Positions 8,671-13,052 of a stretch of DNA of 13,052 nucleotides are shown in pieces. Position 1 is the stretch's first letter. Each line of letters starts with the position of its first letter. Under the pieces are notes generated by a model. It made no database searches and was not told the DNA's origin. It saw only the letters and a list, made by a program, of their open reading frames with translations. The stretch lies in assembly GCA_002394535.1 (NCBI GenBank), contig DGUG01000154.1, forward strand, positions 1 to 13,052, given 5' to 3'. The position numbers were made by a program, and so were the translations under genes. The DNA is from Lachnospiraceae bacterium UBA4316 (GTDB lineage: Bacteria > Bacillota > Clostridia > Lachnospirales > Lachnospiraceae).

Positions 8671-9870
8671 CTACAACACGGTAAAGGTTTTGAGTGTCTC
8701 CTCGAATGTCTTCTCCAGTTCCTCAACCGTAAGCTCGGATACACCTTCTTGGACAGCAGTTGTAAGATATATGGTGATCGTTTTATCTCCGGCCGGAACG
8801 GCATAACAAATATATCTGAATATACGGCCGTCAGAAATATCCTCATCATAAACCGCTCTCTTGCATGAAATATTATCACCGATTACTGAATCAGATATAT
8901 CAAAAGTCTCTGCATCAGTAAATGACAGAGCTTCGGCAATGGCCTCCCCGGCATCTTCTGTGTCAAAACTATTTACCTTCATTGTTGTTCCGGTCCAGGT
9001 AGCATCAGGCTCAATCTTCAAGTATGATTCTCCGGTATCGTCACCCCCATATGAAAATTTCCGAAGATCATATGTCAGGCTGTAGCCCATCTGACTCGTG
9101 TGAGTATAGAAATTCTCCTCCTCCGGTGTCGGGGGCGCATTCAGTACAGGCTTCGGTGCATAGCCATATTCCTGCCACTGTGTGATATACAATCCGTTTG
9201 TATTGATATATTTGGCAATCTCTTCCTGCCGCAGCTCATCTCCTGTTTCGTCAAGGGTTGCCATTAATTTGTTATACAAACCCGGAAGCGGATCAAAAAG
9301 TTTAATACTTTCCTGCTCGGTCATCGGGAGATCTGCGCCTGTAACCTTGTAATCTCCGTCGCCCGTCTTCTTTAAATGGAATATGCCGGCATCCCATGAA
9401 CCGCTTACAGCCACAAGAGTAGAATTCAGAAGGTTATATCCGCATCTGTTGAATGATCCGTACACAAGAATATCATCCGGGTTTCTGTCATCCGTATGAG
9501 CAACGATCGAATAGGGAATATACACATCAGCTGCATTTTCCCCGTTCATCTCCATAGCCTCAGCGATCATATAGTCGCTTATCACACCAAGATATTCATC
9601 ATCTCCCTGATATTTGTATAACGGTAAAGATTTCGGATCATCATAAGGCGATTCATCTACTGCTTCATCTGCGGGTTCAGTCTCTTCTGCTGCCTGAGCA
9701 TCTTCAGGCTGAGCCTCTTCAACATCTACTGCATCCTCGTCCTTTACGGTCTCCTCCGTGGCAGTCTGGCCATCATCGGCACTCTTATTATTAACTGTAA
9801 TGTTTCCGGTACAGGCTGTAAGCGCTGTGACAACAACTGCACCAACAAGTAATGTAACGATTTTTTTCAT
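8671..9870 (-). CDS. Lipoprotein of unknown function with acidic linker
   Basis: I do not recognise a family with confidence. The 399-residue protein starts MKKIVTLLVGAVVVTALTAC, a lipoprotein signal with lipobox LTAC and Cys20 as the predicted lipidated residue. It should be anchored on the outer face of the membrane. Residues about 30-78 are a low-complexity linker very rich in Glu, Asp and Ala, and are probably unstructured. The rest (about 80-399) looks globular, with conspicuous Tyr, Asp and Gly. The last 120 residues or so (KVNSFDTEDAGEAIAE onward) look like a separate compact domain. No enzyme motif is evident. A good AGAGGAGA site precedes the ATG at 9870. It is first in a probable run with the PAP2 gene and diverges from the hydrolase-fusion lipoprotein, whose post-cysteine sequence it resembles. 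Confidence 0.85.
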   Translation of the reverse strand: MKKIVTLLVGAVVVTALTACTGNITVNNKSADDGQTATEETVKDEDAVDVEEAQPEDAQAAEETEPADEAVDESPYDDPKSLPLYKYQGDDEYLGVISDYMIAEAMEMNGENAADVYIPYSIVAHTDDRNPDDILVYGSFNRCGYNLLNSTLVAVSGSWDAGIFHLKKTGDGDYKVTGADLPMTEQESIKLFDPLPGLYNKLMATLDETGDELRQEEIAKYINTNGLYITQWQEYGYAPKPVLNAPPTPEEENFYTHTSQMGYSLTYDLRKFSYGGDDTGESYLKIEPDATWTGTTMKVNSFDTEDAGEAIAEALSFTDAETFDISDSVIGDNISCKRAVYDEDISDGRIFRYICYAVPAGDKTITIYLTTAVQEGVSELTVEELEKTFEETLKTFTVL

Positions 9871-10019: not shown

Positions 10020-10073
10020 ATACAAGTTAAAATCAGTTTCACTTTCGGTTTTGTAAAATACGATAATGGTTGG

Positions 10074-10079
10074 AAGGAG
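10074..10079 (+). promoter_or_regulatory. Ribosome binding site that fixes the fusion lipoprotein start
   Basis: AAGGAG lies six bases before the ATG at 10086 and nine before the next ATG at 10089. Starting here puts the lipobox at residues 22-25, where a signal peptide needs it. A longer in-frame start at 9996 would put some 55 residues before the lipidated cysteine and has no such site. Confidence 0.85.
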
Positions 10080-10085
10080 TCTGAC

Positions 10086-12101
10086 ATGATGCACGGAAAT
10101 AATATAAGAAAATATATGGTGGAAGCATGTATCTTATGCTGTATGATTCTGACTGGATGTAATTATAACATCACCATCAACAATAATACCGGCAAAACAG
10201 GCAATGAATCTTCAACCATTGATTATTCGGATAAGAATAACTGGGCATACTACGAAGCCGGGGATGACAAACCTGCTGACCTGTTTATAATATGTCCGAC
10301 TGTTGACACCAAAGATGAGTATAATATGTCAATGGATGATGAGACTATAAAAGAAAACTTCATTGGCGCACTAAACATGGAACGCGGCATCTACGAAGGC
10401 AGTACGCGAATGTTTGCACCCTTTTACAGGCAGGCCTCGTTGAAGGTTTATGGTCTTGGTGCATCCGAATGGGAACCCTACCTTGCAACTGCATACGAAG
10501 ATGTTTCCGATGCCTTTTCTTATTATCTTGAAAACGAGAACAATGACCGCCCGATTATTCTTGCAGGCTTTTCTCAGGGTGCGGACATGTGCTACCGCCT
10601 TCTTGAAGAATACTTTGACGACAGCAGCCTTGCCGACCGTCTTGTGGCTGTATACGCATTAGGATGGCCGTGTACCCGTGATCTTGTGGAAAAATACCCC
10701 CAGATAAAACCTGCAACAGGCGCTACAGATACCGGAGTGGTTATAAGCTTTGACTGTGAGGATCCCGAGGTTTTTGAAACATTTATCACTCCCGCGGGGA
10801 CAAAATCATATTCAATCAATCCGCTCAATTGGAAAACAGACAGTACGCCCGCCTCCAAAGAAGAGAATATTGGCGCCTGCTTTACCGACTACAGCGGACA
10901 GATTAAAAAAGCTCAGCGTAATCTGTGCGGATGCTATATAGACGAAGATCGGGGAGTCGTTAAAGTCACGGATATTGATCCGTCTGATTACCCTCCTGTT
11001 ATCCCCAATCTTCCCGATGGTGCGTATCACATTTATGATTATCAGTTTTTCTACAGAAATCTGCAACAAAACGTGGAAGACAGAGTAAATGCCTACATAG
11101 CCTCTCTTTCTCCCCGGGAAGATACAATAGATGAAGGGGTAGACACCGAATGTGAGATAACCGGTTATAACAGTATTCCGGCAAATGAGCGGTCATATTT
11201 TCTTGAAGCAGGTGATAAGGTTGCCGTGCTCTCCCCCTCTGCCATTCCCAGCCGTAAACAGGTTGATGATACAATCGAAGGTCTAAGAGACTGGGGCTTT
11301 GAACCTGTGGAGGGGAAGTATGTAAGTCCCGACACAAGAACACTTAATGATGTAATTGATGATTTCGAATGGGCTCTGTCCGACCCTTCGATTAAAGCGA
11401 TTTTCTGCGTACGGGGCGGCTACGGCGCTTCGCAGGTTATGGACAGTGTTCCTCTTGATATTATAAAACAGGCAAACAAGCCGATCATCGGCTACAGTGA
11501 TATTACTGTATATCATTCCGCATGGACTGCATCTTCTCTTGAGTCGGTTCACGGATGTATGAGTGCAACCTTTACGTCTCTTCCGACAGAATGCGCCAAA
11601 GCCGAATATAATATGCTAAAGGGAAGGATTCCTGTCTACAAGTGCACTTCCGCCGAGCCCGGAGTGGACGGTGATGCTACAGGCGTCCTGATAGGTGGCA
11701 ATCTTTCCACCTTTACATCTGTGCTTAATACAGAATACGACTGCACTAAAATAAATGAGCCTTATATACTGTTTATTGAGGACGTAGGTGAAGATATCCA
11801 GCACCTCCATCGCTATCTTACAATATTAAAACATTACGGTGTTCTGGACAATGCCTCGGCTATTATCTTCGGTGAGTGGACAGGACTTCCGGCGGACGGG
11901 TCCGGTAATTTCGGAGCCACAAGAGGTGGCAAATACGAATCGGTTGCCGATATGATAAGACGTGAATTCCTGACAGATATAAATGTCCCGGTTGCCTTCG
12001 GATTCCCGTCAGGGCACGGGGATACAAACTATCCGCTCCTAATGGGAAGATGTGCACACATCACGGTTACCGGTAACGAGTACACCATTGAATGGCAGTA
12101 A
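10086..12101 (+). CDS. Two-domain surface lipoprotein: DUF3089 alpha/beta-hydrolase fused to S66 LD-carboxypeptidase
   Basis: Predicted 671-residue lipoprotein. A short signal ends in lipobox LTGC with Cys25 lipidated, followed by the Asn-rich stretch NYNITINNN. Domain 1 (about 53-338) matches DUF3089, an alpha/beta-hydrolase-like family of unknown substrate. It opens with WAYYEAGDDKPADLFIICP, has the nucleophile elbow GFSQG with Ser163, and ends around YHIYDYQFFYRNL with His315, a likely catalytic histidine. A linker follows (about 339-375). Domain 2 (about 376-671) is a full-length S66 serine carboxypeptidase of the LdcA/MccF type: GDKVAVLSPSA, FCVRGGYGASQ, GYSD with Ser471, LFIEDVGE with Glu565, and GFPSGHGDTNYPLLMG with His644, which together form the expected Ser-Glu-His triad. 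S66 enzymes trim D-amino acids from murein tetrapeptides or inactivate peptide-nucleotide antibiotics and are usually cytoplasmic, so a lipid-anchored outer location is unusual. Either ATG (10086 or 10089) could be the start. Confidence 0.92.
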   Translation: MMHGNNIRKYMVEACILCCMILTGCNYNITINNNTGKTGNESSTIDYSDKNNWAYYEAGDDKPADLFIICPTVDTKDEYNMSMDDETIKENFIGALNMERGIYEGSTRMFAPFYRQASLKVYGLGASEWEPYLATAYEDVSDAFSYYLENENNDRPIILAGFSQGADMCYRLLEEYFDDSSLADRLVAVYALGWPCTRDLVEKYPQIKPATGATDTGVVISFDCEDPEVFETFITPAGTKSYSINPLNWKTDSTPASKEENIGACFTDYSGQIKKAQRNLCGCYIDEDRGVVKVTDIDPSDYPPVIPNLPDGAYHIYDYQFFYRNLQQNVEDRVNAYIASLSPREDTIDEGVDTECEITGYNSIPANERSYFLEAGDKVAVLSPSAIPSRKQVDDTIEGLRDWGFEPVEGKYVSPDTRTLNDVIDDFEWALSDPSIKAIFCVRGGYGASQVMDSVPLDIIKQANKPIIGYSDITVYHSAWTASSLESVHGCMSATFTSLPTECAKAEYNMLKGRIPVYKCTSAEPGVDGDATGVLIGGNLSTFTSVLNTEYDCTKINEPYILFIEDVGEDIQHLHRYLTILKHYGVLDNASAIIFGEWTGLPADGSGNFGATRGGKYESVADMIRREFLTDINVPVAFGFPSGHGDTNYPLLMGRCAHITVTGNEYTIEWQ

Positions 12102-12120: not shown

Positions 12121-13052
12121 CTAATTCTTAAAACTGTGTATAGGTGCCGGAATACGTCCTTTGCGGTTAATAAACTCCTGACATGAAAAGTTATTGACCG
12201 CCATTATGGGCGCATGCCCCAACAGTCCTCCATACTCCACCGTGTCTCCCACATTTTTACCTTTTGCGGGACACAGTCTTACTGCGGTGGTTTTCTGATT
12301 GACCATTCCTATTGCCATCTCATCGGCTATGATGCCTGAAATAGTTGCCGCACTTGTATCTCCGGGTATGGCTATCATATCAAGGCCTACCGAACATACG
12401 CATGTCATGGCCTCAAGTTTTTCGATGGTGAGTGCTCCGGCTTCAGCCGCATCGATCATTCCCTGGTCTTCGGATACGGGAATAAAAGCCCCCGACAATC
12501 CTCCGACATATGAACTTGCCATTACGCCGCCCTTTTTAACCTGATCATTTAGAAGTGCAAGGGCAGCTGTAGTTCCCGGTGCTCCGGCCTTCTCAAGACC
12601 CATTTCACACAGAATATCCGCAACGGAATCTCCGATCGCGGGAGTAGGTGCCAAGGAAAGATCAACTATGCCGAACGGGACATTAAGACGCCTTGATGCT
12701 TCCTTGGCAACAAGCTGACCGACACGCGTTACTTTAAATGCGGTCTTCTTGATCGTCTCGCACAACTCTTCGAAACCCTTGCCTTTAGTATCGGCAACCG
12801 CGCGTCTAACTACTCCGGGTCCGGATACTCCCACATTGATCACGGCATCACCTTCTGTCACACCGTGGAAAGCACCTGCCATAAACGGATTATCATCCGG
12901 AGCATTACAGAATACTACAAGCTTGGCACACCCTATATCCGACTTCTCCGATGTTTCCTTGATTATCTGCCCCATCAGCCTGACCGCATCCATATCAATT
13001 CCGCATCTTGTTGATCCTACGTTTACTGATGAACAAACAAGGTTTGTTGAGC
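12121..13052 (-). CDS. UPF0210 / PFL family (DUF711) protein, N-terminal part outside the window
   Basis: The reading frame is open to the right edge and ends at the TAG at 12121-12123. About 310 C-terminal residues are visible of a family usually near 450. The sequence entering from the edge reads [18 protein letters not shown]. It is followed by [26 protein letters not shown] (written here in part), [47 protein letters not shown] and [11 protein letters not shown], all characteristic of UPF0210. An internal ATG at 12993 is not the real start, because the conserved family sequence continues upstream of it. The structure resembles glycyl-radical (pyruvate formate-lyase-like) barrels, but no biochemical role is established. 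In many genomes a small ACT-domain gene (UPF0237) sits directly upstream; that position is beyond the edge. It converges on the fusion lipoprotein gene. Confidence 0.94.

Follow-up and report, generated by a model that had tools for sequence, protein, structure and literature searches.

Fusion of a DUF3089 hydrolase and an S66 peptidase in a predicted lipoprotein of Lachnospiraceae

A single gene in the stretch of DNA considered here (the window: 13,052 nucleotides of contig DGUG01000154.1, Lachnospiraceae bacterium UBA4316, assembly GCA_002394535.1) joins a DUF3089 hydrolase to an S66 peptidase behind a lipoprotein signal, two known kinds of enzyme in a new combination. We favour, at about even confidence, a reading in which a single polypeptide anchors two hydrolases to the membrane, each working independently on fragments of the cell wall; the fused protein may belong to a repertoire of secreted enzymes that rumen and gut Clostridia assemble from interchangeable modules. 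For a family of unknown function, domain fusions offer one of the rare hints at a role, and this one, together with the partners that both modules have in common, raises the testable question of whether DUF3089 acts on cell-wall fragments in gut Clostridia. On the favoured reading, wall peptides would also be processed outside the cell and within a single molecule in Gram-positive gut bacteria. Hosts sense bacterial wall fragments.

Two hydrolase modules in one predicted lipoprotein

An earlier inspection of the letters without database searches (the sequence-only reading) had proposed two unrelated, full-length serine-hydrolase domains in one lipoprotein frame, and profile searches bore this out. 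Pfam recovers both families over their cut-offs and along the whole of each profile: DUF3089 (PF11288; E 4.6e-49, profile positions 1-207 of 207, 167.2 bits against a cut-off of 23.4), the S66 N-terminal domain (E 4.1e-25, 1-121 of 121, 88.7 bits against 25) and the S66 C-terminal domain (E 5.7e-27, 1-120 of 120, 95.1 bits against 23.7). The lipobox, assigned by eye, recurs at the corresponding place in four fused relatives (P0001-P0004), and we infer from sequence a lipoprotein sitting on the outer face of the membrane. Positions are collected in the table.

The catalytic residues named at the outset also proved correct. Ser163, in GFSQG, and His315 are invariant in 87 of 87 alignment rows (the window protein and 86 relatives at 28-70% identity), as is the S66 triad of Ser471, Glu565 and His644 in 48 of 48. 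Asp215, Glu225 and Asp318 of the DUF3089 module are likewise invariant in all 87 rows; at position 296 all 26 near rows have Asp, but the wider set of 87 splits into 44 rows with Asp and 43 with a gap. Acidic candidates before His315 comprise Asp at -14 (45 of 87 rows), -15 (15), -17 (16) and -19 (44). Structure prediction gives the DUF3089 module an esterase-type alpha/beta-hydrolase fold with a GxSxG nucleophile and His, and the S66 module an LdcA-type fold, LdcA chains heading both its sequence and its fold searches; solved structures, searched with a profile of the DUF3089 alignment, returned no match at E 0.01. Judged by conservation, both serine-hydrolase domains are probably active.

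Comparison with characterised enzymes, for which papers are cited here from excerpts of their text, places each half in familiar company. Like the S66 enzymes LdcA of Pseudomonas (PA5198) and E. coli, the fused protein has full N- and C-terminal domains and Ser-Glu-His, but it differs from both in being a lipoprotein joined to another enzyme; in a 2019 review of wall hydrolases, the table entry for S66 shows no further catalytic domain (PMC6403190). LdcA of Neisseria gonorrhoeae is, as the window protein, an exported S66 enzyme and a predicted lipoprotein with a lipobox, but it has a Tat signal and a Gram-negative host, and the excerpt describing it mentions no second catalytic domain (PMC5646250). 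Characterised DUF3089 enzymes, as excerpted, are short-chain esterases (PMC4431682, PMC5341072). Two of them, Est10 and MGS0012, have the Pfam family, GxSQG motif and alpha/beta-hydrolase fold of the window module; Est10 carries a signal peptide and, at 367 residues, is too short for a second enzyme, and MGS0012 has its acid at Asp360, 15 residues before His375. The sequence-only reading had known of no characterised enzyme with this architecture, and the excerpted literature naming DUF3089 likewise mentions no fusion of the DUF3089-S66 type; no paper in the searched library names DUF3089 together with peptidoglycan.

Table. Features of the fused gene and its neighbours in window coordinates
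Feature	Position	Strand	Remark or basis
Divergent lipoprotein gene, 399 aa	8671-9870	-	no Pfam family over cut-off
Probable ribosome-binding site GGAAGGAG	10072-10079	+	ends 6 nt before ATG at 10086; sequence
Fused gene DUF3089-S66, 671 aa	10086-12101	+	open, intact frame
Predicted lipoprotein signal peptide, lipobox L22-T-G-C25	10086-10160 (Cys25 at 10158-10160)	+	by eye
DUF3089 alpha/beta-hydrolase module (predicted fold), residues 45-342	10218-11111	+	Pfam core, residues 64-252, at 10275-10841
Ser163, nucleophile in GFSQG	10572-10574	+	alignment
His315, probable catalytic His	11028-11030	+	alignment
Inter-module linker, about residues 343-372	11112-11201	+	alignment occupancy switches from DUF3089 to S66 rows
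S66 N-terminal domain, residues 379-490, with Ser471 (11496-11498)	11220-11555	+	Pfam
S66 C-terminal domain, residues 532-659, with Glu565 (11778-11780) and His644 (12015-12017)	11679-12062	+	Pfam
DUF711 gene, cut by window end, convergent with fused gene	12121-13050	-	Pfam

Partner modules of DUF3089 and S66

Relatives were listed as the best 120 by score with lengths 0.55-1.75 times that of the query, and the resulting counts are not prevalences. Among the 225 proteins listed, DUF3089 occurs in 112, S66 in 120 and both in 7. The 112 DUF3089 proteins carry HAD (57, 4 of them also with DUF218), cyclohexadienyl-dehydratase-like (11), S66 (7) and acid phosphatase (6) modules, more rarely nucleoside deoxyribosyltransferase-like modules (2) and NagZ-like GH3, VanX-type M15, YkuD and SLH (1 each), and several have further domains without a family assignment; P0343 joins DUF3089 to GDPD, and named loci add M15_4 (L116) and NlpC/P60 (L131). 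Apart from DUF3089, the 120 S66 proteins have NagZ-like GH3 (5), VanY (2), cyclohexadienyl-dehydratase-like (1) and acid phosphatase (1) modules as partners, and at least 38 have unassigned N-terminal domains.

Three partner families are common to the two lists (NagZ-like GH3, cyclohexadienyl-dehydratase-like and acid phosphatase), and the copies involved can be close. The dehydratase-like module beside S66 is 75-82% identical to copies beside DUF3089, identity between the acid phosphatases of DUF3089 and S66 fusions is 60-65%, and the GH3 module of the DUF3089-GH3 protein shares 59-64% identity with those of three S66-GH3 proteins and only 37-41% with those of two GH3-S66 proteins. From these common partner kinds and close partner copies, DUF3089 and S66 replace each other before the same kinds of second enzyme; in the window protein they occur together. 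Fusions of GH3 with S66 exist in both orders, each with its own GH3 kin, and on a quick tree the GH3 label requires at least two gains or losses on starred branches; two independent joinings are likely.

The GH3 module of P0014 has the Bacillus NagZ lipoprotein YbbD as its best match, and the signature KH(F/Y)PGHG...D-H, containing the Asp-His dyad of NagZ-type GH3 enzymes (excerpt of PMC6403190), is kept in six of six GH3 modules. The M15 module matches VanX at 211 bits against an NCBI cut-off of 320, and the phosphatase module matches glucose-1-phosphatase at 340 against 425. The module labelled SBP_bac_3 by Pfam was considered as a device for amino-acid capture, an idea dropped because its best solved relatives are cyclohexadienyl dehydratases (closest 5jos, E 1.7e-67). 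Six patterns covering the nine active-site residues of PaCDT given in the excerpt of PMC10520331 were placed on these modules by eye from an alignment; all six are present in 11 of 12, but with Leu or Met at the place of Thr132, and P0080 retains that Thr with two of the patterns missing. The catalytic Glu, by pattern, is present in 12 of 12. Exported cyclohexadienyl dehydratases fused to chorismate mutase are reported from nine species (PMC10520331).

Several minor observations concern these architectures. Dehydratase-like fusions of DUF3089 or S66 occur in gut Clostridia (P0043, P0048, P0057, P0150 and relatives, and L092). A distant DUF3089 branch contains a tandem DUF3089-DUF3089 protein (L048:5392-7437), and other tandems are suspected from length alone for P0231 and other rows of about 650 residues. 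A domain with a weak match to SAM_HAT_C is found repeatedly alongside S66, VanY and DUF3089 (P0148, P0177, P0200, L156) and is possibly a misnamed binding or structural domain. S66 proteins of 430-500 residues bear N-terminal domains of about 130-265 residues, and those of P0125, P0139, P0134 and P0136 matched no Pfam family.

Possible roles of the anchored pair

If the favoured reading is right, the lipid-modified N-terminus signalled by the lipobox would anchor the protein at the outer face of the membrane. By analogy with the exported LdcA of Neisseria (excerpt of PMC5646250), we hold with fair confidence that the S66 module would clip the terminal D-Ala off tetrapeptide stems of wall fragments outside the cell. 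The DUF3089 module might hydrolyse a short acyl or aminoacyl ester on the same fragments or on material released along with them, candidate substrates being O-acetyl groups on wall sugars and D-alanyl esters. That it removes an ester from wall-derived material we infer, weakly, because DUF3089 is fused to six kinds of wall enzyme, most seen once, and has short-chain esterase kin. Fusion would then hold both enzymes of a single degradation route together in matched numbers, without making them a channelled two-step enzyme. In Bacillus subtilis, NagZ (YbbD), a lipoprotein, and AmiE degrade muropeptides sequentially (excerpt of PMC6403190); unlike the halves of the window fusion, these are separate proteins, and they belong to other enzyme families.

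A broader proposal is tentative: that DUF3089 in this clade is an unrecognised wall-directed hydrolase, such as an esterase for O-acetyl or aminoacyl groups of muropeptides, and that rumen and gut Clostridia own a kit for extracytoplasmic muropeptide salvage whose modules (DUF3089, S66, NagZ, VanX, VanY, YkuD and NlpC/P60) are swapped within single exported proteins.

Several results weigh against a wall-directed role. Non-wall partners of DUF3089 are in the majority by count, HAD foremost. The S66 half scores 76 bits against the NCBIfam equivalog cut-off of 378 for muramoyltetrapeptide carboxypeptidase, for which reason it is filed as S66 and not as an LdcA ortholog. A scan of same-strand DUF3089 neighbours at 76 loci found no conserved operon or neighbourhood, and no wall enzyme stood among the 25 most frequent of the 140 families matched. 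(That scan concerned 81 adjacent same-strand frames within 400 bases, of which 77 were scanned, with two frames at L123 added by hand; frames at L143 and L148 and one each at L152 and L155 were dropped as apparently spurious.) DltA exceeds its cut-off in none of six genus genomes, all of which hold weaker matches (at most 307 of 560 bits), and this weakens the D-alanyl-ester idea for the bacterium's own wall. Acyltransferase 3 proteins are present in all six, and one long example examined is, by eye, not of the OatA type. GH3 is found in five of the six and not in the window's own genome, which is 71% complete.

The main rival, which we rate as possible if rather unlikely, is generic scavenging, in which these Clostridia tether assorted nutrient-releasing exoenzymes to the membrane and join them freely, DUF3089 being a carboxylesterase of broad range, active on esters from the diet or from plants, that has only its anchor in common with S66. 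It is a strong rival since non-wall partners outnumber wall ones: DUF3089 is joined to HAD (a partner in 57 of the 112 listed proteins), acid phosphatase, cyclohexadienyl-dehydratase-like, nucleoside-deoxyribosyltransferase-like, DUF218 and GDPD modules. Many of the hosts are rumen bacteria by record title, the fold neighbours of DUF3089 include Est1E, solved with ferulic acid, and Est10 is most active on C4 esters (excerpt of PMC4431682). Two raw counts speak, tentatively, against scavenging: six of the 13 named partner families observed for DUF3089 are wall enzymes (S66, GH3, M15, M15_4, YkuD and NlpC/P60), and S66 and DUF3089 have three partner families in common, with copies up to 59-82% identical.

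The sequence-only reading had pictured a working two-step enzyme; in its strict form, the DUF3089 site would act first and pass its product to the S66 site of the same molecule. In its favour, both sites look active by conservation and the fused form is retained in several genomes, but we consider it unlikely. The two domains are predicted to fold like esterases and like LdcA; a facing arrangement of active sites did not emerge, the full-length model (pTM 0.63) being poor over about residues 241-320 and placing the domains relative to each other without confidence, so that coupling is not supported. Both modules also occur alone and with many other partners in various orders, which co-anchoring of independent enzymes fits better. 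By analogy, the authors who described exported chorismate mutase-cyclohexadienyl dehydratase fusions report that kinetics gave no sign of gating or channelling there (excerpt of PMC10520331).

Less probable still is self-protection, with an MccF-like S66 half inactivating a peptide-nucleotide antibiotic and DUF3089 de-esterifying the same compound. MccF does belong to S66, and MccF chains match the S66 half not far behind LdcA, from rank 8 in the fold list; but LdcA chains come first by sequence and by fold, and the sole NCBI family matched, under its cut-off, is muramoyltetrapeptide carboxypeptidase. A separate S66 gene lies in the same genome (G000:C27:1-534, minus strand; L176), cut by the contig start, with no visible signal peptide and with a longer N-domain match; the partners VanX, VanY, NagZ and NlpC/P60 suit wall peptides; and the other window genes look housekeeping or unknown. 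Of the substrates first proposed, wall peptides thus stay likely, the S66 half being closest to LdcA, and a peptide antibiotic has become less so. That the fusion is neutral or has decayed, one of its halves being dead, might be suggested by its rare and patchy occurrence but is very improbable, and the sequence-only reading had likewise seen no decayed gene: the named catalytic positions are invariant in both halves in the rows examined, and fused relatives down to 63% identity retain both halves.

Spread, origin and genomic surroundings

The fusion is rare. Seven further complete fused proteins, 63-90% identical to the window protein, were found in the protein collection (P0001-P0007); complete fusions are present in three of 37 genomes of the genus, its own included (G000, G004, G026), and in two of 392 of the order, its own included, both belonging to this genus. 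A further genus genome (G012) possibly holds both ends of one fusion, lying at contig ends. Among the best 80 of 179 confirmed named loci the fusion is complete in five, some of which coincide with P0001, P0004 and further listed proteins, and cut in one; the open reading frame (ORF) caller missed the gene in four of the 80. The loci with the fusion come from metagenome-assembled Lachnospiraceae, and the titles of several point to ruminants. A frameshift or assembly artefact is ruled out by the seven other complete proteins and the five complete genes in named genomes.

Quick trees without constraint need three fusion changes for DUF3089 and two for S66. Trees that keep the fusions together have the higher likelihood (AU p 0.70 for DUF3089, 0.94 for S66), so a single origin is not rejected by either domain tree; these trees used thinned sets (126 of 188 DUF3089 rows, 110 of 126 S66 rows), with P0008, whose fusion is truncated at the end of a contig, scored as S66 alone.

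The DUF711 gene adjoins the fused gene in G026 and G004 as well. In those two genomes the opposite flank of the fused gene carries three genes, judged by eye to be a CoA ligase and a pair for indolepyruvate oxidoreductase, separating the fusion from the gene for the 399-residue lipoprotein in G026 and from TmcAL in G004; in the window this block is lacking and the lipoprotein gene is directly next to the fused gene. The remaining window genes were assigned by Pfam in six cases and by eye for SMC, RNase III and PlsX.

Wall-peptide genes lie near DUF3089 at three named loci (L123, L131, L097), noted outside any systematic search; neighbours in other orientations or farther away were compared only mutually or with one M15-YkuD protein, and loci with wall-gene neighbours may exceed three. 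At L123:2516-7008 a VanY lipoprotein, a YkuD protein and DUF3089 follow one another on the same strand, at L131 a VanX-type gene directly precedes the DUF3089 gene, and at L097 (the same place as L040) an M15-YkuD lipoprotein is one gene away. That lipoprotein (L040:2141-3667, minus strand) joins a VanX-type M15 to a YkuD domain, which, with two relatives, has SGGC or TGGC around its Cys; the usual YkuD motif there is SHGC.

After the lipobox, the neighbouring lipoprotein (8671-9870) starts CTGNITVNN and the fused protein (10158-10184) CNYNITINN. A stretch of the form [VI]N[VI]N near the lipobox is present in nine of 47 DUF3089 or S66 lipoproteins against one of 20 others, a difference too weak for a sorting tag.
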